NCBI GenBank assembly: GCA_016744855.1
Contig: JADGDO010000008.1
Location: 1-64,000, forward strand
Reading direction: 5' to 3'
Length of the DNA stretch: 64,000 nt
Source of the DNA: Candidatus Fermentibacteraceae bacterium
GTDB taxonomy: Bacteria; Fermentibacterota; Fermentibacteria; Fermentibacterales; JCC-6
Below the pieces are notes generated by a model that did not search any database, was not told the origin of the DNA, and saw only the letters and a list, made by a program, of their open reading frames with translations. The number at the start of each line of letters is the position of its first letter. Position 1 is the stretch's first letter. Position numbers and translations under genes: made by a program. Shown here one piece after another: positions 9,538 through 57,805 of the stretch.

Positions 9538-10665
9538 ATGGGTAAGAAAGTTTTGATCACTGGTGGTGCAGGTTTCATTGGCTCACATCTAGGAGATCTT
9601 TTCTTGTCCAAAGGGTACCAGGTTAAGGCCTATGACAATCTTGATCCTCAGGTTCACGGTGAAAATGCTTCCAGACCTGCTTATCTCAACAAAGATATTG
9701 AATTGATCATTGGAGATGTTAGAAATCCTGAAGCTTTTGCCAGTGCACTGAATTCTGTGGACATTCTTGTTCACCTTGCTGCAGCGGTCGGAGTTGGTCA
9801 GTCAATGTACGAGATTGTCAGGTATACATCCATCAATACAATGGGTGCTGCAACAGTGCTTGAAGAAGCAGTTAAACAGAGAGACCATATCGAGAAGATG
9901 CTTGTTGCCAGCTCTATGTCTATTTATGGAGAGGGTCTCTATCTGTGCCCTGATTGCGGAGAAATTTCTCCCCGCCTGAGGTCTACAGCTCAACTTGCAG
10001 AACGCAACTGGGATATGCTTTGCCCTATTTGCGGAAAGCCCTGTACTCCGATCCCCACTCCGGAGACAAAACCACTCTACCCAACCAGCATCTATGCCGT
10101 AAATAAAAGAGACCACGAAGAAATGTTCCTCTCTGTCGGGGATGCATATAATATTCCCGCAACTGCTATGCGATTCTTCAATGTCTACGGGGAAAGGCAG
10201 GCCCTCTCAAATCCTTACACAGGTGTTGGTGCGATTTTCGCATCCAGACTGCTCAATGGGAAACCCCCTGTAGTGTTTGAAGACGGTGGGCAAAGTCGCG
10301 ACTTCATACATGTGAGAGATATTGCCCGCGGCTGCCTTCTTGCATTGGAAAATGGCAACTCCAACGGTGAAGTGTTCAACCTTGGAACCGGGCGCAAACT
10401 ATCAATCATGGATGTAGGCAAGGCTATTGCCGGGGAGCTTGGAAGACCTGCTGACGATTTTATTGTAAACAATCAATACAGAGCGGGAGACATTCGCCAT
10501 TGCTACGCGGATGTTTCCAGAGCAAAAACAATTCTTGGTTTCAAACCTTCCACGGTTTTTGAAGAGGGTGTCAGCGAGCTTTGCAACTGGGTTAAAAGTC
10601 AGACATCGACAGACATGGTGGATAAAGCCACAGAAGAACTTAAAAAAAGAGGTCTTTCCCGATGA
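9538..10665 (+). CDS. NAD-dependent epimerase, dTDP-L-rhamnose 4-epimerase-like
   Basis: A 375-residue extended SDR enzyme. GGAGFIG at 9-15 binds NAD, and YAVNK (Tyr186, Lys190) gives the catalytic pair. Between the strand carrying the SSMSIYGEG motif and the catalytic Tyr there is an insert with CPDC (Cys137, Cys140) and CPICGKPC (Cys162, Cys165, Cys169), a likely zinc knuckle. From memory, dTDP-L-rhamnose 4-epimerases of the WbiB/Tll type carry such a CxxC insert, so this may make dTDP-6-deoxy-L-talose; a UDP-sugar epimerase is the alternative. The start ATG follows GAAAGGAAG. It leads an operon of overlapping genes running to 14601. Confidence 0.75.
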   Translation: MGKKVLITGGAGFIGSHLGDLFLSKGYQVKAYDNLDPQVHGENASRPAYLNKDIELIIGDVRNPEAFASALNSVDILVHLAAAVGVGQSMYEIVRYTSINTMGAATVLEEAVKQRDHIEKMLVASSMSIYGEGLYLCPDCGEISPRLRSTAQLAERNWDMLCPICGKPCTPIPTPETKPLYPTSIYAVNKRDHEEMFLSVGDAYNIPATAMRFFNVYGERQALSNPYTGVGAIFASRLLNGKPPVVFEDGGQSRDFIHVRDIARGCLLALENGNSNGEVFNLGTGRKLSIMDVGKAIAGELGRPADDFIVNNQYRAGDIRHCYADVSRAKTILGFKPSTVFEEGVSELCNWVKSQTSTDMVDKATEELKKRGLSR

Positions 10666-11759
10666 AATTTCATCTTCTTCTAGATGCCAGAGCTGTACAA
10701 AAAAATGTTGATGGGATAAGCAGATTTTCTCTGAATGTCACAAAATGCATTATTGAAAAGAGACCAGACTGGAAAATAACTGCAATAATCGGAAAAGAAG
10801 CAGCATTCCACTTGGAAAATACCGGTGCGGAAATCCTGATAGATGACACTTCAAGATTCCGGGAGAGAACCAATAAAAAACTCGCGGGGCGAATTAACAA
10901 AATTTCTCCAGATGTTTTTCTAAATTTCTCAATGGCCGGTCCACAGCCAGATGTTCCCACTATTGTCATGGTGCACGATCTGATGGTTCTGAATCTTCCC
11001 AGCTATTTCGGTGACAGCATTATCCGCAATGCAATAAGCCGCCAAATCTTCAGGAAAGCTTTGAAAGCATCAATAGGACATGCTTCTTCCGTGGGCGTTC
11101 TTTCAATGGCCACGAAACTTGATGTAATGAGGTATTCTAAGTCCTCTCAAGAAAAAATCTTCATTACCGGAGCAGGTCAGGCTCTTTTCTCTTCTCCTGT
11201 TTCCAAGGTGATGGAAAGAGAAAACTTCTTTCTTTACGTAGGCAATGCGAGGGGTTACAAAAACATACCTCGTTTCCTTACTGCCTATGGAAGACTCTGG
11301 GCACTGAATAAAAAGACGCCTCCTCTGACAATGGTTGTTCGTAAGGACAGAGCTTACAACTACTTCAAGAAACACTACGATTCAAACCCTGCAAGATCAA
11401 ACATAAAAGTTCTAACTCACATATCAGACGAGGAATTGCGAACTCTCTACCTCACCTGCAGGGCTCTGCTTACACCATCAGTTTATGAAGGTTTTGGCCT
11501 GCCAGCTCTTGAAGCAATGGCAACAGGAACACCGGTAATGGCTTCAAAAGCCACTGCCCTTGAAGAGGTAGTAGGAGAAACAGGAGTTCTCATAGACCCC
11601 TACTCCGTTATTGATATCATGCGGGGAATGGCTGAATTATCTGCAGCGACACCGGAGGAACTGGAAAAACTGGGAAAACTCGGCCAGGAAAGAGCAGCTA
11701 TTTTCTCATGGGAGAAGACAACCGACTGTTTCCTCGAAAAGATTGAAGCCCTTATATGA
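10662..11759 (+). CDS. Family 4 glycosyltransferase
   Basis: A 365-residue GT4 enzyme, with an N-terminus LLDARAVQKNVDGISRFSLN, an IVMVHDLM strand, a donor-domain start FFLYVGNARGYKNIPRFL and the EX7E region YEGFGLPALEAMATGTPVMAS. The start ATG overlaps the stop of the epimerase gene (ATGA at 10662-10665), and its own stop overlaps the radical SAM gene the same way, so the three are coupled. It likely adds a sugar supplied by the epimerase next to it; that link is inference from gene order. Confidence 0.85.
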   Translation: MKFHLLLDARAVQKNVDGISRFSLNVTKCIIEKRPDWKITAIIGKEAAFHLENTGAEILIDDTSRFRERTNKKLAGRINKISPDVFLNFSMAGPQPDVPTIVMVHDLMVLNLPSYFGDSIIRNAISRQIFRKALKASIGHASSVGVLSMATKLDVMRYSKSSQEKIFITGAGQALFSSPVSKVMERENFFLYVGNARGYKNIPRFLTAYGRLWALNKKTPPLTMVVRKDRAYNYFKKHYDSNPARSNIKVLTHISDEELRTLYLTCRALLTPSVYEGFGLPALEAMATGTPVMASKATALEEVVGETGVLIDPYSVIDIMRGMAELSAATPEELEKLGKLGQERAAIFSWEKTTDCFLEKIEALI

Positions 11760-48091: not shown

Positions 48092-51001
48092 ATGAGGGAA
48101 AAAGATCTACTCAGAGTTTTTAACACAATGGTCGATTCCTACTGCCGGATTGATATCAGTGGAGCTATCACTGCTGTAAATAACAGGTTTGTCGAGTTGT
48201 TCGGTTACAATTCCCGTGAGGAAGTACTCGGAAAAAATCTTGAAAATGACTTTCTGCTGGATCTGATGCAATTGAATTCACTCTTCAGAGACCCCGCAAG
48301 CGATAACAAAACACATGAGCTCAGCGGAGAACTTAGAAAAAAAGACAGCTCTCTTATTTTTACAGAGACCAAAGCCAGACTGCTGACAAATGATAGCGGT
48401 GCTGTAACAGGGTTTGAGGGTTACATTCGTGACATCTCCGAGATTGTCTCCCAGAGGAAAGTTTCTGAACATCTTACCAGTGCTCTCGTGGCCATCAGGC
48501 AGGTGGGTCATCTCATGACCAAAGAGAAAGACCTAACTAAAATGATTCAGGGCATCTGCGATGCATTGATCTCAACAAGAGGTTATTCCTCTGCCTGGAT
48601 ATCTCTCTATGACCATGAAAAGGAATCCTTTTACGAAACTGCTTCAGCTGGAATCCCAGAAAGCAACATGCGTGTCCTCTCTGAGATGCTTGCATCCGGC
48701 GAAATTTGTATCTGTGCTTCAATAGCGATGAAACAATCTGCTGTTGCTACGGTAGATGATGTTCAAAATCGTTGTGGGGACTGTCCCCTTATAGGCCTCG
48801 AACCCAACAGCAGACCATTTACTACAGCACTCAGGGTAGACGGTGAGATTTACGGTGTTCTTTCAGCAGAACTGCCAATTCAACTCAGTAATCAGAAAGA
48901 TGAGCAATCTCTCTTCCAGGATGTCGCTGACGATGTTGCTTACTCTGTTCACAACATCCACCTGGAATCAGAAAAAATAGAATCTCTGAAAGCTATTGAA
49001 ACAGCAAACAAGCAACTTGAGGAAGCTCTGAAAATTGCTGAAGACGCTGCAAAACAGGCAGCAGAGGCCAGCCGGGCAAAGAGTGAGTTCCTGGCAAATA
49101 TGAGCCACGAAATTCGCACTCCTCTAAACGGTGTGATTGGAATGACCGGTTTGCTGACGGAGACCAGTCTCACTCCTGAACAGAGAGAATTTGCAGTAAC
49201 CATAAAAACCAGTGGGGACGCTCTACTTACTCTGATAAATGACATTCTTGATTTCAGTAAAATTGAAGCTGGCAAACTGGAGATAGAAAAAACCAATTTT
49301 GATCTTAGATTGCTGATTGAGGAAATCGGCGATTTGATGGCCCTCAGAGCCCAGCAAAAAGGACTAGAGTTCATCTCTTTAATTGGTCCCGACATTCCTG
49401 CTCCAGTTAATGGTGACCCCGGCAGAATCCGTCAGATACTCCTCAACTTAACTGGGAATGCAATCAAGTTTACCAGCAAAGGAGAAATCAGCGTATCTGC
49501 TCTAACAGTACATGAAACAGAAGAGACTGTTCTAGTAAGATTCTCCGTCACAGACACCGGTATAGGTATTCCCTCGGAAAAAGCTGTATCCATTTTTGAT
49601 TCCTTTACACAGGTCGATGCATCTACAACTCGGAAATACGGTGGAACAGGCCTCGGTTTATCCATCTGCAAACAACTTGTAAATCTCATGGGTGGCAAAA
49701 TAGGAGTAATAAGTAAAGAGGGTTCAGGCTCAGAATTCTGGTTCACCCTTGCCCTGGAAAAACAGTTAACTCTCTCAGCAAAACCTGTTAAAAAATCGAT
49801 AGAAAACACAAGAATACTCGCGGTAGACGACAACTCAACAAACAGAAGACTTATTACACTTCTTCTTGAGTCATGGCACTGCAGATATTCTGTAGAGCCT
49901 GATGGTCCTGCTGCTTTGGAAGTTCTAAAAAAGGCCACCCTTGAGAAAGATCCCTTCCGCATAGCAATACTTGATATGCAAATGCCTATTATGGATGGAG
50001 AGGAGCTTGGACGCAGAATAGTTCAGGACCCCGAAATTCAGACTCCCAAAATGATAGTAATGTCTTCTGTTGGAGCAAGAGGCGATGCCGCCAGGTTACA
50101 CGAACTCGGTTTTTCGGCATACCTCACTAAACCGGTAAAACAATCTCACCTTTTTAATTGCCTTACCACGGTTAACAGCATTCAGGGTAAAACAACAGAT
50201 GTGCCGCTTGTAACAAGACACTCTCTCAGCGAATCAAGAAAAACCGGTTTAAAAATCCTGGTTGTTGAAGACAACCCGGTTAATCAGCTGGTGGCTGTCA
50301 AAATTCTTGAAAAACTTGGTTACAGAGCAGAGGTAGCAGCCAATGGAAGAGAAGCTCTTGATTCTCTTGCAAAGATACCTTTCGACCTGGTTTTCATGGA
50401 TTGCCAGATGCCTGTAATGGATGGATATGAAGCCTCAAATGCAATTCGTTCAGGAGACGTAAAAATTCTGAACAGAAAAGTCGTGATTATCGCAATGACG
50501 GCAAATGCATTGAAAGGTGATCGAGAGAAGTGCATAAACGCTGGAATGGATGACTACATATCAAAACCGGTTACTCCCAAAACTGTTGCAACACTCCTGG
50601 ATCAATGGCATTCCAGAATATCAGACTCCAGCGGATCAATAAGAGATGACAATCAGGATGATCTGCTTCTCTTCGATGAAAGCAAACTCAAAGAGGACTT
50701 CGAAGATGACACTGATACAATTCAGGAACTGATAAGGTTATTCATGGTAACGGGCAGAGAAAACCTGAATAATCTTGGTCTGGCTTTATCAGAAAACAGA
50801 GCAGATACAGTGGAGCTACTTGCCCACACCCTTAAAGGCTCTTCTCTTAATTTAGGGGCAAGTTCTCTGGCAAAAGCCTGTGGGAGACTTGAAAAACTGT
50901 CATCAAGCGGTGACCTAGCGAATGCCGAAGTTCTTCTGAAAGTGATTGATGTTGAGTTTGTTAGACTCTCCGATCATCTTTCAGAAATGGGCTATAGATA
51001 G
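48092..51001 (+). CDS. Hybrid sensor histidine kinase (PAS-GAF-HisKA-HATPase-REC-REC-HPt), copy 1
   Basis: A 969-residue soluble phosphorelay protein without TM segments. Order: PAS at about 10-120; GAF at about 145-290 with a Cys-rich loop (CGDCPL); coiled coil to 335; HisKA with His339 in [10 protein letters not shown]; HATPase to about 560 ([16 protein letters not shown]); receiver 1 with Asp628 in ILDMQMP; receiver 2 with Asp770 in FMDCQMP; HPt with His912 in AHTLKGSS. It would sense a cytoplasmic signal and relay phosphate to an unlinked regulator. A closely related paralogue follows 139 bases downstream. Confidence 0.95.
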
Positions 51002-51140: not shown

Positions 51141-54044
51141 ATGAACGCTCAGTTTCAACACAAAGTTTCTTGCAATACGACCGAGGCCTATTTCAGAGTA
51201 AACGATACCGGAGTAATCACCTCCGTAAACACGAAAGCTGTTCAAGTTTTCGGGTACAGCTTACCGGAGCAGATGATAGGCAAGAGATTCACTAGCGAGT
51301 TCTTTCCGAGCAAAGAGGCAAAACGCGCTTTTCTTCACTTTCTTAAAAGTGACGGGTCCATACAATTCCTGACAGCCTTCTTTGTTAAGCTAGACGGATC
51401 TCAGTTTGAAGCAGAAACACATGTGAGACGGCTGTCAAACTCAACTGGAGGATTTGGGGGATTCGAGGGATTCTTACGGGACCTTTCTGGCATAAGAAAT
51501 GACACCGGTCATGCTGAACACCTCACCAGTGCTCTTAAGGCAATTAGACAGGTCAATCGACTCATTACAAAGGAAAAAAATCTTGATACCATGATCCAGG
51601 GAATATGCGATGCTCTTATTTCTACAAGAGGGTATTCTTCAGCCTGGATAGCTCTTTTCAGCGACAAGAACTACACATCCTGCAAAACGGCCTTTGCTGG
51701 AATCCCAGCAGAAAACATGAGTCGGCTCAAAGCAAGAATAGAAGCCGGTAACCTTGTTATCTGTGCAAGGCTTGCTCTGGAGAGTGAAGAACTTGTTACC
51801 GTTGATAATGTAAGAAATCAGTGCGGTGGGTGCCCATTGCTAAACCTCGATCCCGGAAGCAGGCCTCTTACTACTACTCTTGTTGCAAACGGAAAATTGT
51901 ACGGAATAATCTCCGCTGAGATACCTCAGGAAATCTCAACAGCCCTGGACGAACAATCTCTGTTCCAGGAGGTTGCTGATGATGTAGCTTACTCAGTTAG
52001 AAACATAGGAATGGAAGTCCTGAGATTAGAGCACAAAAAGGCTATAGAGAAGGCAAAGAAGGGTCTCGAAGAGGCTCTCAAAATAGCGGAAAAATCAGCT
52101 GATTACGCCAAGGAAGCAAACCGTGCCAAGAGTGAATTCCTCGCAAATATGAGTCATGAGATCCGAACACCTCTGAACGGTGTAATCGGCATGACAAGTC
52201 TTCTTATCAAAACAGAACTGTCACCCGAGCAGAGAGAATATGCGGAAACAATTCACACAAGCGGCGATGCTCTTCTCTCTCTGATTAACGACATTCTTGA
52301 TCTGAGCAAAATAGAGGCTGGCAAACTGGAGGTTGAAAACACAGAATTTAACCTCAGGTTGCTGATTGAGGAAATTGGGGACCTTATGGCGATGAGAGCC
52401 CACCAGAAAGGGCTTGAATTCATATCTATGATTGGTCCGGACATTCCAATAGGAGTTATCGGTGATCCCGTTAGAATCAGACAAATTCTCCTGAATCTTA
52501 CAAGTAATGCTCTCAAGTTCACGGAGAATGGTGAAATCAGTGTCTCTATCACCGTTGAGCAGGAGACAGATAAGAGAGCAAAACTGAGATTTTCCGTACG
52601 AGATACAGGTATCGGTATTCCGGCCAGAAAAGCAAAACTGATTTTTGATTCATTCACCCAGGCTGATGCCTCCACGACAAGAAAATACGGCGGAACAGGG
52701 CTTGGTCTTTCGATATGTAAAAGGCTTGTAGAGCTCATGGGTGGACGAATCGGTGTACTCAGTCGCGAGGGTTCGGGGTCAGAATTCTGGTTCTCTCTTT
52801 CTCTGGATAAACCTCTTTCCTCCTCTTCCCTGGGAAGAGAAAAGACATTAGAAAATATCAGAATCATTGCCGTCGATGACAATTCTACGAACAGAAGACT
52901 CATCGCACTCCTTTTAGAGTCATGGAATAGCCGGTTTGAAGTTGTTTCGGGTGGTCAAGAAGCCCTGGAAACACTTAGAAAAGCCTCAAGAGAAAAAGAT
53001 CCGTTCAGAATCGCTATTCTTGATATGCAAATGCCGGAAATGGATGGAGAAGAACTGGGCAAAAGGATTATTTCAGACAGCTCTATTGTAAATCCCAAGA
53101 TGATTGTTATGTCTTCAGTCGGAGCAAGAGGAGACGAAGCACGTCTGAAGGAGCTTGGGTTCTGCGCTTACCTGACAAAACCGGTTAAGCAATCCCACCT
53201 TTTTGACTGCCTTACAAATATCTGTGCCCCCGGAATGATTCCCACAAAACAACTAAAGGTGGCGGAACCCAAACGACGGAAGCTCACGAAAGCTGATCTC
53301 AAAATTCTAATTGCGGAAGACAATCAGGTAAACAGACTGGTTGCAGTTAGAATACTTGAAAGCCTCGGCTACAAAGCTGAAACCGCAGCTAATGGTGAAG
53401 AAGCTATTCTCCGAATGAAGGATGAATCATTCGACATTGTTCTGATGGACTGCCAAATGCCTGTATTGGACGGCTATGATGCTTCAAGGTTAATCCGTTC
53501 CAGGGAACGCGAAACTTTAAACCCGAATGTCGTCTTAATTGCCATGACAGCCAACGCCTTAGAGGGTGACAAGGAAAAATGTCTACAGGCAGGAATGAAT
53601 GATTACCTACCAAAACCAATTACACCGGAAACTGTCTCAAAGATTTTGTCATCTTGGACGACAGTAATCCTGAGTGAGAAAAACAGCAAAAACACCCAGA
53701 CTGTGGATTTCTTCGACAGAACTGTACTGGAAACAGATTTCGATAACGACATTGAGGCAATTCGAGAGATGATTGATCTCTTCATTTCAACTGCACGGGG
53801 TAATGTTAATAACCTATCTGCCGCAATTATTTCCAACAGTCCGCTAAGGGTAAAAATAATTGCTCATACTCTGAAAGGCACTTCTATCAACATCGGAGCA
53901 AACAACCTTGCTGATGCATGTGCAAGACTTGAGCAGCTCTGTTTGAAGGGAGATCTCGGAAACGGAGATATCCTTCTAAAAGTTCTTGAGACTGAGTATG
54001 ACAGATTGGTAGAACACCTGGTGGATATAGGCTGGGGAGACTGA
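51141..54044 (+). CDS. Hybrid sensor histidine kinase (PAS-GAF-HisKA-HATPase-REC-REC-HPt), copy 2
   Basis: A 967-residue paralogue of the preceding kinase with the same domain order, the phospho-acceptor His339 in [10 protein letters not shown] at the same residue number, both receiver aspartates (ILDMQMP, LMDCQMP) and the HPt His in AHTLKGTS. The two are most alike from the end of GAF to receiver 1 and most different in the PAS domain, so their input signals may differ while the relay is shared. Arisen by tandem duplication. Neither has a DNA-binding output domain, and no separate regulator is encoded nearby. Confidence 0.95.
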
Positions 54045-54068: not shown

Positions 54069-54518
54069 TTACAAACCCTGATCTATGAAAGCGGATATTA
54101 TCGGAAGGAAATCTTCAGGTGAGCCTCCGACTCCGGTGATGCGGTCAAGTTCATTTCCCTCAGCATCAGCAAGGATCAGTGTCGGGATACTCTGAGCACT
54201 GTATCTCTGAGCCAGGTCAGGGTAATTATCTACATTTACTTTCAGGAGAATACACTGCGACAGTACTTCCTGGTAGTCTGCTCTTGAGAAATAATCATCC
54301 GAGAGCATTCTGCAGGGGCCGCACCAGTCTGCATAGAGGTCTATAAAAACTGGCTTTCCAGTTTCAGCAGAAAGAGCAAGAGCGGAGTCAAGATCATCAT
54401 GAATCCAATCCGATCCCTCTGCAGATTCGGCAGTGGTAGCTTCTTCGGCCTGATTCTCCCCGGGCTCACCACAGGCAACCAAAGCAAGCACCAGTGTCAG
54501 GGCTAGTAAATATTTCAT
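54069..54518 (-). CDS. Thioredoxin-like lipoprotein
   Basis: A 149-residue protein. The ATG at 54518 is chosen because AAGGAGAACC lies just before it. MKYLLALTLVLALVAC is a lipoprotein signal with lipid-modified Cys16, followed by a Glu/Ala-rich linker. The thioredoxin domain has the active site WCGPC (Cys66, Cys69) and cis-Pro in SIPTLIL. It resembles the DsbD C-terminal domain or DUF255-type thioredoxins and would act on periplasmic disulfides. Any link to the Sec-Cys proteins encoded 0.6 kb away is speculation. Confidence 0.9.
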   Translation of the reverse strand: MKYLLALTLVLALVACGEPGENQAEEATTAESAEGSDWIHDDLDSALALSAETGKPVFIDLYADWCGPCRMLSDDYFSRADYQEVLSQCILLKVNVDNYPDLAQRYSAQSIPTLILADAEGNELDRITGVGGSPEDFLPIISAFIDQGL

Positions 54519-54597
54519 AGGTTCTCCTTTCATGAGTTAAGTTTTCGATTGTTACGAAATATACAAACTTTATGGGGTTTAGTTCCAGGGAGGAATC

Positions 54598-55020
54598 ATG
54601 AGACCGGAAACACCACAAATTACAGTAGACGCAATTATTGAAATCAGTGGGGGAATTGTCCTGGTAGAGAGGAAATACCCTCCTCTGGGATGGGCTATTC
54701 CAGGCGGATTTGTTGATCCGGGAGAAAGCCTTCTAGAAGCAGTAAAAAGAGAAGCCCTCGAGGAAACCAATCTTGAAATAGATGTAATCGACCTTTTTCA
54801 CATCTACTCCAAACCATGGAGAGACCCTAGAGGAGATACTGTCAGCGCGGTTTACTGGAGCTCTGCAACAGGTGAACCGATTGGAGGAGATGACGCTGCA
54901 AAGGCTGTTGTATTCTGTGAAAATGAGCTCCCGGAGAATATTGCTTTTGACCACAGAGAGATTCTGAGGCAATTCTTTCTCTGGAGAAAAACAGGAACCC
55001 GACCGGATCTGAGCCTGTAA
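54598..55020 (+). CDS. Nudix hydrolase
   Basis: A 140-residue Nudix protein. The Nudix box runs from GGFVDPGESLLEAVKREALE into EETNLEI at about residues 38-62. WAIPGGFVDPGE and the RDPRGDTVSAVYW segment are typical of ADP-ribose pyrophosphatase-like members. It hydrolyses a nucleoside diphosphate linked to another group; the substrate is not predictable. The ATG follows GGGAGGAATC. Confidence 0.92.
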   Translation: MRPETPQITVDAIIEISGGIVLVERKYPPLGWAIPGGFVDPGESLLEAVKREALEETNLEIDVIDLFHIYSKPWRDPRGDTVSAVYWSSATGEPIGGDDAAKAVVFCENELPENIAFDHREILRQFFLWRKTGTRPDLSL

Positions 55021-55121
55021 ACACTTGGATTATTGACTTCACAAGAAAGCTGTGCAATACTTCTCTACTTACCCCAGCGCCTTTTCAGTAATCGTTTCTC
55101 AAAACCTCTGATTGGAGTAAA

Positions 55122-56363
55122 ATGAAGTACTTTGGCTTGCTTTTATTGCTTATGCCTGTACTTGCACTTGCAAGTGTCCCATCGTTCCATGAACCGGTAA
55201 AGATTCAGGCCGATGGAGTTGATATTGATGTGGGTCTTATTGCCGAACCATTTATGGTAGACTGGGATTCAGACGGTGTTACTGACCTTCTTGTCGGGCA
55301 GTTCTCGCCAGGCAAAGTCAGTTTCTATAAGAATATCGGAACAAATCAGGCTCCGGAATTCACTTTCTCGAACTACCTTCAAGCTGACGGGTCCGATATC
55401 TCCGTCAGCGCTGGTTGATGCACCGGCGCTACAAATCCACAGGCTGTGGATTTCAATAACGACGGAATTCTTGACCTTCTTATCGGTGAAAGAGATGGTT
55501 ATTACAATTTCTATACAGGTAATGGCGATGGAACTCTTCATGCTTTAGACTATCCTGAAGACAATATGGGTAATCCCATCAACCGTAATTACAACTCAGC
55601 GGGATATCTTGATGACTGGAATGAAGATGGCTATATCGATTTCATAGCAGGAGGCTATGACAGTGAGTCATTAACCGGCGGATTGCTTCAGGTCTACTTG
55701 AACACCGGTGATGATATCACTTCCCCAGTTTGGGATGCAACTGTAATTGATCTTACATCAACAGTATGCAACAAGTGGAGAATTACTCACCAGACATATG
55801 ACCTTGATGGTGACGGTGACAAGGATCTCGTACTTGGTTACGAAATGGGCAATATCTGGTTCGCAGAAAACACCGGCACCAACAGCAATCCCTCATTCAA
55901 CGGCTATGTTCAACTGGTCTGTGATGGAGGAGACATAAACGTTTACACCACCTACAGTGAAGGTGGCGGTAGAGCCCGTGAAAACGTTGCCGACTACAAC
56001 GGCGACTACGTTCCGGACCTGCTTGTTGGATGTAACAGTGGATGGATTTACATGTTTGAAGGATATGGTACTGGAATAGAAGAGGAGTCATCCGCTGCAG
56101 TAGTAAGCGAATTCGGCATGACCCTCTCTGAGGTTCCAACAACAGGTCTCTTCTCGGTAAACCTAACTCTTCCATTTGCTTCACAGGCAAAGATAAGCAT
56201 CTTTGATGCGACAGGAAGATTGATAAACTCGAGCAACTCATCTTGCCAGAGCGGTTTCGGCTCCCTGCAGATGAATATTACTGACAGCCCCGCTGGAATG
56301 TATATTGTTTCTGCTACCGTTGACGGAATAACAGAAACGGCAAGATTGATTAAGATCAATTAG
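55122..56363 (+). CDS. Candidate selenoprotein: secreted FG-GAP/VCBS repeat protein with in-frame UGA (copy 1)
   Basis: A 413-residue exported protein if the TGA at 55416-55418 is read through as residue 99. The signal peptide is MKYFGLLLLLMPVLALAS. FG-GAP/VCBS calcium-type motifs lie on both sides of the TGA in one frame (DWDSDGVTDLLVG before; DFNNDGILDLLIG, DWNEDGYIDF, DLDGDGDKDLVLG after), and a T9SS-type domain ends the protein (FGMTLSEVPTTGLFSVNL, IFDATGRL). TGC (Cys) follows the TGA, giving a Sec-Cys pair in SAG-U-C-TGATNP. The downstream part has no ribosome site of its own, only a GTG inside a hairpin. A homologue 146 bases downstream keeps the TGA. Confidence 0.8.
55407..55453 (+). 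promoter_or_regulatory. Candidate bacterial SECIS element (copy 1)
   Basis: Two adjacent hairpins. (a) AGCGCTGGT (55407-55415) pairs with ACCGGCGCT (55422-55430), nine pairs with one G-U, with TGATGC, including the UGA, as the loop. (b) AAATCCAC (55433-55440), loop AGGCT (55441-55445), GTGGATTT (55446-55453), eight perfect pairs. Hairpin b starts 14 bases after the UGA and its loop has GG at positions 2-3; the E. coli fdhF element has loop AGGUCU starting 17 bases after its UGA. Bacterial SECIS elements place a loop G in the first two positions about 16-37 bases after UGA. Confidence 0.75.
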
Positions 56364-56377
56364 TTACACTGTTCTAA

Positions 56378-56413
56378 AGGGGCATTCCGGTTTTCCGGAG
56401 TGCCCCTATTTTT
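56378..56413 (+). terminator. Rho-independent terminator
   Basis: GGGGCATTCCGG, loop TTTT, CCGGAGTGCCCC (one G-U pair), then TATTTTTC; it separates the two candidate selenoprotein genes into distinct transcripts. Confidence 0.88.
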
Positions 56414-56508
56414 CTGAAGGTATTGACCATTCAAATCGCAAGCAGAATACTACTTGTATGCGCTAAGAATTATTCTGCAATAGTTTCTCGAAACACACAA
56501 GGAGAAAA

Positions 56509-57747
56509 ATGAAAAACTTTGTATTGTTACTGTGCTTACCTCTGCTTGCTCTTGCCTCTGTACCTTCATTTCATGAAGGAGTGAAGATTCAGGCAGATGG
56601 AACAGATATTGATGTTGGCCTTATTGCCGAACCGTTCATGGTAGACTGGGACGGAGACGGAGTAACTGATCTTCTTGTAGGACAGTTTGCACCGGGTAAA
56701 ATTAGTTTTTATAAGAATATCGGGACAAATCAAGTTCCGGAATTCACTTTCTCAAACTACCTTCAAGCTGATGGATCCGATATCTCCCTCAGCGCTGGTT
56801 GATGCACCGGTGCAACAAATCCACAGGCTGTGGATTTCAATAACGATGGTATACTTGATCTTCTTGTCGGTGAAAGAGATGGCTATTACAATTTCTATAC
56901 CGGTAACGGCGACGGAACTCTTCATGCGCTTGCCTTGCCTGAAGACAATATGGGAAATCCCATCAACCGTAATTACAACTCAGCGGGATATCTTGATGAC
57001 TGGAATGAAGATGGCTATATCGATTTCATCGCTGGGGGCTACAACACCGAGACAAGTTCCGGTGGACTTCTTCAGGTATACCTGAATACCGGTGATGATA
57101 TTACTTCCCCTGTATGGGACGCAAATGTAATTGATCTCACTTCCACTGTATGCAACAAGTGGAGAATTACCCACCAGACATACGATTTTGATGGTGATGG
57201 AGATAAGGATATTGTAATGGGCTACGAAATGGGAGATGTCTGGTTCGCTGAAAACATCGGCACCAACAGCAACCCTGAGTTTGACGGGTATGTGCCAATT
57301 GTATGCGATAATGGCGTTATAGACATGTCATCAACTGCATATGAAGGCGGCGGCAGAGCACGTGAGAATGTTGCTGACTACAATGGCGATTACGTTCCTG
57401 ATCTGCTTGTTGGATGCAACAGCGGCTGGATCTATTACTTTGAAGGCTACGGAACAGCTATAGAGGGTGAAACATCCGCTACAGTTGTAAGCGATTTCGG
57501 CATGACCCTTTCTGAAGTTCCAACCACCGGTCTATTCTCGGTAAACCTAACACTTCCATATGCTTCACAGGCAGAGATAAATATCTTTGATGCAACAGGA
57601 AGATTGATTGACTCGAGCAACTCATATTGCCAGAGTGGCTTCGGCTCTCTGCAGATGAACATTACCAGCAGCCCTGCTGGAATGTATATGGTTACTGCTT
57701 CTGTAGAGGGAATTACTGAAACAGCTAGATTGATTAAGATCAATTAG
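56509..57747 (+). CDS. Candidate selenoprotein: secreted FG-GAP/VCBS repeat protein with in-frame UGA (copy 2)
   Basis: A 412-residue paralogue of the 55122-56363 protein with residue 98 encoded by TGA at 56800-56802. Signal peptide, FG-GAP motifs and T9SS-type C-terminus match copy 1. The TGA, the following TGC and the next eight residues (TGATNPQA) are identical in position, while many other codons differ silently (GGC/GGT, GCT/GCA, GGA/GGT) and some residues differ. A decaying pseudogene would not keep the frame and the stop in the same place in both copies. The gene has its own ribosome site (AAGGAG before ATG 56509) and a terminator on each side. Confidence 0.8.
56791..56837 (+). promoter_or_regulatory. 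Candidate bacterial SECIS element (copy 2)
   Basis: Same arrangement as copy 1. Hairpin a: AGCGCTGGT (56791-56799) with ACCGGTGCA (56806-56814), eight pairs including G-U pairs, the terminal pair lost, with UGAUGC in the loop. Hairpin b: AAATCCAC (56817-56824), loop AGGCT (56825-56829), GTGGATTT (56830-56837), eight perfect pairs and unchanged. The stretch from ACA before the hairpin to AATAAC after it is identical in both genes although flanking codons carry silent changes. Confidence 0.75.
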
Positions 57748-57759
57748 TTTCTCAACGCA

Positions 57760-57796
57760 AAAAGGGGCAAACCTATTTTTCGGTTTGCCCCTTTTT
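57760..57796. terminator. Bidirectional rho-independent terminator
   Basis: AAAAAGGGGCAAACC and GGTTTGCCCCTTTTT around an eight-base loop, between convergent genes. Confidence 0.93.
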
Positions 57797-57805
57797 ACGG
57801 GTATT

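Follow-up and report, generated by a model that had tools for sequence, protein, structure and literature searches.

A predicted family of exported FG-GAP beta-propeller selenoproteins in Fermentibacterota, Planctomycetota and other bacteria

Background

Selenocysteine (Sec) beside cysteine is known from the GCUG motif of mammalian thioredoxin reductase, and among propeller proteins SELENBP1/SBP56 is known as a selenium-binding protein without genetically encoded Sec. A review of May 2026 lists 119 prokaryotic selenoprotein families (PMC13188914 Table 1), and to these we compare a gene from a Candidatus Fermentibacteraceae bacterium found in a 64,000-nucleotide stretch of contig JADGDO010000008.1, hereafter the window. 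In common with the known prokaryotic families, including outer-membrane or exported members like the FCYXU TonB-dependent receptor and the GSU2204/MtrB-PioB barrel, the gene combines an in-frame UGA, a bSECIS hairpin within the coding region, a host with SelA/B/C/D and the existence of Cys homologues. With the CU-motif selenoproteins (e.g. KCU-star/DUF466, SaoL, HgcA, CopZ-like) it shares the placement of Sec beside Cys and the possibility of a vicinal selenenyl-sulfide, but both these proteins and thioredoxin reductase have unrelated folds, and members of the present family mostly have U before C, on a loop between blades, next to C-U and U-only subtypes. The sequence-only reading had held Sec next to Cys to be rare; the U-C pair is indeed present, but adjacency by itself is not unique, CU motifs being already listed for several families. 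FG-GAP repeats with DxDxDG motifs ally the protein with FG-GAP/VCBS propellers such as integrin alpha, CRTAC1 and the PVL lectin, from which it differs in having five blades rather than seven and a Sec-Cys loop before blade 2. Like SELENBP1/SBP56 (PMC10362175) it is a propeller linked with selenium or thiol chemistry, but its Sec would be genetically encoded; no SBP56/SELENBP1 entry came up in the listed matches by fold or by sequence.

Among the 119 families there is no FG-GAP, VCBS or propeller entry, and for none of them is a T9SS-exported propeller or a G-U-C-x-G loop motif listed (PMC13188914), in keeping with the sequence-only reading, which knew of no FG-GAP/T9SS selenoprotein. The deep-Sep paper likewise holds no FG-GAP/VCBS/propeller selenoprotein. 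A search of the full-text literature, mostly openly accessible journal papers, returned nothing relevant on FG-GAP/VCBS selenoproteins or on selenocysteine in Fermentibacter. For the nine paralogues of this genome described below, NCBIfam (June 2026) gives matches to T9SS tail and unrelated domain models only, and none to a curated selenoprotein model. The family is thus undescribed in the sources searched, though it may have been mentioned earlier in preprints, in subscription papers or among the planctomycete selenoprotein candidates of PMC4807772 (S9 Table).

A reading frame with a single TGA and its paralogues

Copy 1 of the gene occupies positions 55122-56363 of the forward strand, starting with ATG at 55122 and open throughout except for one in-frame TGA at 55416-55418, just as had been claimed; only the final codon (56361-56363) departs from the earlier description, being TAG instead of TAA. 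Read with Sec as residue 99, the product has 413 amino acids. The codon directly after the TGA is TGC (55419-55421), again as previously noted, and supplies Cys100, the vicinal partner of Sec99. The protein begins with a signal peptide recognized from its sequence (residues 1-17, MKYFGLLLLLMPVLALA, 55122-55172, the end being a predicted cleavage site), continues as a five-bladed FG-GAP beta-propeller supported by Pfam and a structural model (residues 23-319, 55188-56078), and ends in a T9SS type A sorting domain supported by profile matches and the model (residues 332-411, 56115-56354). The FG-GAP repeats score above the Pfam cut-off (PF13517, 69.6 bits; PF01839, 31.2 bits), as does the sorting domain above its own (TIGR04183, 31.2 bits with a cut-off of 23; PF18962, 29.3 bits). 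As the Pfam domains (FG-GAP_3 repeats, FG-GAP and Por_Secre_tail) are spread across both sides of the TGA, the contention that propeller and sorting domain fit only if the codon is read through is upheld. Directly upstream lie two tandem, alike-built hybrid histidine kinases with PAS, HisKA, two receiver and Hpt domains (48092-51001 and 51141-54044).

A tandem paralogue, copy 2, follows at 56509-57747 (+), encoding 412 amino acids with Sec98 and sharing 86-87% identity with copy 1; its UGA is at 56800-56802, followed by TGC, and its bSECIS hairpin, identical in sequence to that of copy 1, at 56817-56837. Between the copies, at about 56378-56412, is a terminator-like hairpin with a T run (GGGGCATTCCGG...CCGGAGTGCCCC), which suggests that they are transcribed separately. 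Both copies are real, as had been claimed, but the family is far larger than the pair: when the 3.24 Mb genome, which is 95% complete, was queried with the read-through product, nine full-length members were recovered at 32-86% identity, each with exactly one in-frame TGA, and all nine TGAs fall in one alignment column. The motif is G-U-C-T-G in seven of the nine, C-U (HCUPKTG) in one and U without a neighboring Cys (STUGHAATP) in another. TIGR04183 is matched by all nine, and no internal stop was found in the other proteins of the genome that share just the sorting tail.

A single in-frame TGA is, by itself, how a nonsense mutation would look. However, nine paralogues diverged down to about 32% identity, each with exactly one TGA, argue that the codon is no chance event. 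Furthermore, comparison of copies 1 and 2 gives a dN/dS of 0.093 for the part preceding the UGA and 0.12 for the part following it; in the C19 pair, in which dS is high or saturated, the corresponding values are 0.106 and 0.079. Values of about 0.1 on either side indicate that both flanking parts are under purifying selection as protein. With the TGA kept also in about 150 genes of several phyla and accompanied by a conserved hairpin, a nonsense mutation, a pseudogene or a sequencing error is a vanishingly improbable explanation of copy 1, already refuted by a TGA that persists from paralogue to paralogue and from phylum to phylum; the dN/dS values, too, speak against a pseudogene or a sequencing error.

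Distribution of the family and of the selenocysteine machinery

Profile searches recovered homologues in 36 of the 42 genomes of the order; by organism name, homologues come from Candidatus Aegiribacteria, Sabulitectum and Fermentibacteria, and from WOR-3, Planctomycetota, Chitinivibrionales (Fibrobacterota), Bacteroidales, Nitrospiraceae, Lentisphaerae and other groups. Of 392 sampled genomes of the planctomycete phylum, 114 hold a strong match, in most cases with a single TGA. Mapping of the residue in the Sec column covered 189 distinct homologous stretches plus another 31, several of the latter being the same genes; approximately 150 distinct genes, drawn from independently assembled genomes of Fermentibacterota, WOR-3, Planctomycetota, Fibrobacterota, Bacteroidota and other groups, have TGA in that position. 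The Sec label shows strong clustering in a tree built from 136 members, with at least four changes forced. Some records sit oddly with their labels: L058, labelled Desulfuromonas sp. SDB, groups with Fermentibacterota, and L084, labelled Bacillota, groups with Planctomycetota and is nearly identical to L089. As these groupings contradict the record labels, both are probably mislabelled or mis-binned contigs. One 3.5 Mb genome (G165, locus L076) has 45 matches to the family profile, with TGA in the four strongest.

The column is not invariably TGA. Homologues with Cys aligned to residue 99, named in the sequence-only reading as a check, number nine: L097 (TCCV), L102 (WCCIG), L204 (GCCIGFTPQ) and L223-L228 (YCCVG), the last being six close homologues from planctomycetes. 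In another branch Gly occupies the column and the Cys that follows is kept; in an Akkermansia sp. MAG (L083) a non-Sec propeller of this Gly-Cys type lies inside a frame of more than 4000 residues. The reversed C-U order (HCUPKTG) is seen in L008, L048, L148 and L150, and the U-only form without an adjacent Cys (STUGHAATPNPQ) in L009 and in copies in L028 and L029.

The host genome encodes tRNA-Sec (anticodon tca, 68 bits), SelA (437 bits), SelB (317 bits) and SelD, thereby answering the question raised earlier of whether the Sec machinery is present; selD lies beside selA, and its own frame carries the UGA of a Sec-type enzyme (CAGUAGK). Near selD is a YedF-like gene (TusA plus DsrE-type; L019, about 10557-11369, minus strand), a known companion of selenium metabolism. 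Across genomes, SelA accompanies the TGA form. It was found in 33 of the 36 Fermentibacterota genomes holding a member, the three without it being 61-77% complete. Of two sets of TGA-form genomes, the first has it in 26 of 27 (G151, counted among these, gives a partial match only) and the second in 16 of 16. Full SelA is missing from eight of the nine Cys-form genomes, two of which give no match and six only partial ones of 34-41 bits; the exception, G367, has full SelA.

The conservation of the TGA alone would be compatible with the codon specifying some other amino acid through code reassignment or suppression. Yet TGA is an ordinary stop here, the family members L003, L007 and L009 themselves ending in TGA, and the Sec machinery is in place, the hairpin accompanies TGA only, and replacement of the codon by Cys or Gly occurs in genomes mostly without full SelA. 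Such a reading is extremely improbable, and reassignment is ruled out by the TGA codons that close other family genes together with the machinery. Selenocysteine at this codon therefore stays the preferred reading, TGA by itself being no proof of it in every case: L068 (context GGGTGAGGG), the single TGA-form homologue whose genome has no SelA, also lacks the hairpin. Its sequence suggests that the TGA is probably a mutated Gly codon, and it may represent, elsewhere in the family, the nonsense mutation dismissed for copy 1.

A conserved hairpin downstream of the TGA

In copy 1 a bSECIS-type hairpin spans 17-38 nt downstream of the TGA (55433-55453, +), formed by AAAUCCACA, a GGC loop (55442-55444) and UGUGGAUUU, with the loop starting 23 nt past the UGA. 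Every paralogue has the same form, AAUCCACA-GGY-UGUGGAUU, the loop starting 23 (to 26) nt past the UGA with G in its first position. A search of 55000-57800 against Rfam gave no match to a SECIS family and only chance matches below cut-off; to our knowledge, Rfam holds no general bSECIS model. The published bSECIS model specifies an apical loop of 3-9 nt, an upper stem of 4-16 bp, G in the first two loop positions, a UGA-to-loop distance of 16-37 nt and an MFE of at most -7.5 (PMC13188914). The window copies agree with it, with a 9-bp stem, the loop GGC, a spacing of 23 nt and a core of -8.6 kcal/mol; family-wide, the loop and spacing rules are mostly followed, while some hairpin cores taken alone are weaker than -7.5 (e.g. 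-5.7).

With the geometry held fixed, at least six of the eight pairs form in 120 of 127 TGA genes as against two of 32 sense-codon homologues, and the mean number of pairs in TGA genes is 7.28, compared with 4.61 (maximum 4.83) in 200 synonymous-codon shuffles. On 81 distinct hairpins 573 of 648 cells pair, versus 527 (maximum 538) when the 3' letters are shuffled 1000 times, and compensatory changes on both sides are seen at the third pair (A-U to G-C, C-G and U-A) and the seventh (A-U to G-C). Some changes in the hairpin come at the cost of an amino acid, Val becoming Ala in L003 and Met in L085, which is what selection on the RNA itself would lead one to expect. In the genome G024 the second copy of L053 (L053:4404-5606, the same as L131) forms a tandem with a Sec copy; its own Sec-Cys is replaced by Glu-Thr (TGATGY to GAAACC), yet its hairpin is still perfect. 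Judged by its sequence, it is a recent loss of Sec, in a Fermentibacterota genome that still has SelA.

Based on the conserved TGA column, the machinery, the covarying hairpin and the Cys homologues, we propose that the in-frame TGA of copy 1 almost certainly encodes selenocysteine, in support of the earlier preference for Sec insertion over a nonsense mutation.

Structure of the propeller

An AlphaFold2 model built from the window protein and 45 homologues (pLDDT 90.2) shows a five-bladed propeller followed by a C-terminal beta domain, and the model of a planctomycete member (pLDDT 89.9) is also five-bladed. The best structural neighbors of the two models (VIA) are five-bladed GH43/GH62 enzymes, with a Z score of 19.0 over 235 aligned residues (rmsd 2.8 A) in one case and of 19.7 over 264 (rmsd 3.5 A) in the other. 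This overall likeness to five-bladed GH43/GH62/GH32 propellers, at Z of about 19-20, could be taken to mean that the protein is a glycoside hydrolase of that fold in which the Sec loop is incidental. However, identity in the top matches is just 8-13%, so the likeness is one of fold only; a sequence relation to these enzymes was not found, no glycoside hydrolase family is matched in Pfam or NCBIfam, and the sequence relatives, with significant profile similarity, are the FG-GAP propellers integrin alpha, CRTAC1 and PVL lectin. Moreover, Sec-Cys is among the most strongly conserved columns outside the calcium motifs. We accordingly regard a hydrolase of this kind as very improbable.

In the model, Sec99-Cys100 is placed on a long loop between the last strand of blade 1 (residues 80-85) and the inner strand of blade 2 (residues 104-109). 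In FG-GAP propellers such an inter-blade loop faces away from the calcium loops (DxDxDG) and lies close to the opening of the central channel, the place at which substrates are bound in propeller enzymes. By strand order and analogy with these propellers, the Sec would lie near the channel mouth, on the face opposite the calcium loops.

Proposed function

We consider it highly probable that copy 1 encodes a true selenoprotein, an exported propeller of a family undescribed in the sources searched. Most likely its vicinal Sec-Cys pair would serve as the active site of an oxidoreductase that works outside the cytoplasm. The SelA, SelB, SelD and tRNA-Sec of the host would read the UGA at residue 99 as selenocysteine, directed by the bSECIS hairpin whose loop starts 23 nt downstream, and the product would be exported to the cell surface or the medium, as its signal peptide and T9SS sorting tail (the tail being present in Fermentibacterota) suggest. 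There the Sec-Cys pair would cycle between selenol/thiol and selenenyl-sulfide, and periplasmic or surface thioredoxin-like proteins may re-reduce it. A thioredoxin-like lipoprotein with a CGPC motif is encoded close upstream of copy 1 (54069-54533, -) and is a possible reductant, as a candidate only, since it does not recur as a neighbor at other loci.

Redox chemistry outside the cytoplasm is the most likely function, the evidence for it being the Sec-Cys pair itself. In alignment A2, Cys100 is kept in 37 of 38 Sec forms and in all seven non-Sec forms; as it is better conserved than Sec, and Gly-Cys forms exist, it may be the essential residue. The U-only subtype, with no adjacent Cys, counts against a redox pair.

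The main rival to a redox role retains the selenoprotein but gives the Sec-Cys pair a binding function on the propeller face, for a ligand or for a metal or metalloid (e.g. species of Hg, Cu, As or Se), with no redox turnover. It would accord with the extent to which secreted paralogues have multiplied (as many as nine in a genome), the subtypes with U-C, C-U or U alone, the presence of binding proteins (integrin alpha, PVL lectin) among the FG-GAP relatives, and the metal-related nature of several known CU-motif families (PMC13188914 Table 1); a neighborhood analysis across the family loci, moreover, found no recurrent partner gene pointing to a pathway beyond orthologous loci. On the other hand, characterized selenoproteins are mostly redox enzymes (PMC13188914), and extra conserved Cys or His ligands are not prominent in the conserved columns. 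We hold binding without turnover to be possible but rather unlikely, and retain the oxidoreductase as the preferred reading.

Implications

The selenoproteome would thereby gain a family with a fold, the FG-GAP five-bladed propeller, that is missing from the current list. It is a common family, with members in 114 of the 392 sampled planctomycete-phylum genomes, most with UGA, and nine in one Fermentibacterota genome, and wherever the UGA is taken as a stop all such genes would be mis-annotated as truncated fragments. The family would provide a rationale for the Sec machinery of these lineages and imply that selenium is needed for proteins they export; it would also make Sec chemistry on a fold other than the thioredoxin-like ones accessible to experiment. 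We see the chances as evenly balanced for a still wider proposition, namely that these proteins form a large unrecognized class of secreted selenoenzymes, five-bladed propellers with the vicinal Sec-Cys pair on the face that binds the substrate. The class would be either ancient or widely transferred (Planctomycetota, Fermentibacterota, WOR-3, Fibrobacterota, Bacteroidota and others), and its members may rank with the principal selenium-dependent proteins of these uncultured groups, performing a novel extracellular redox chemistry.
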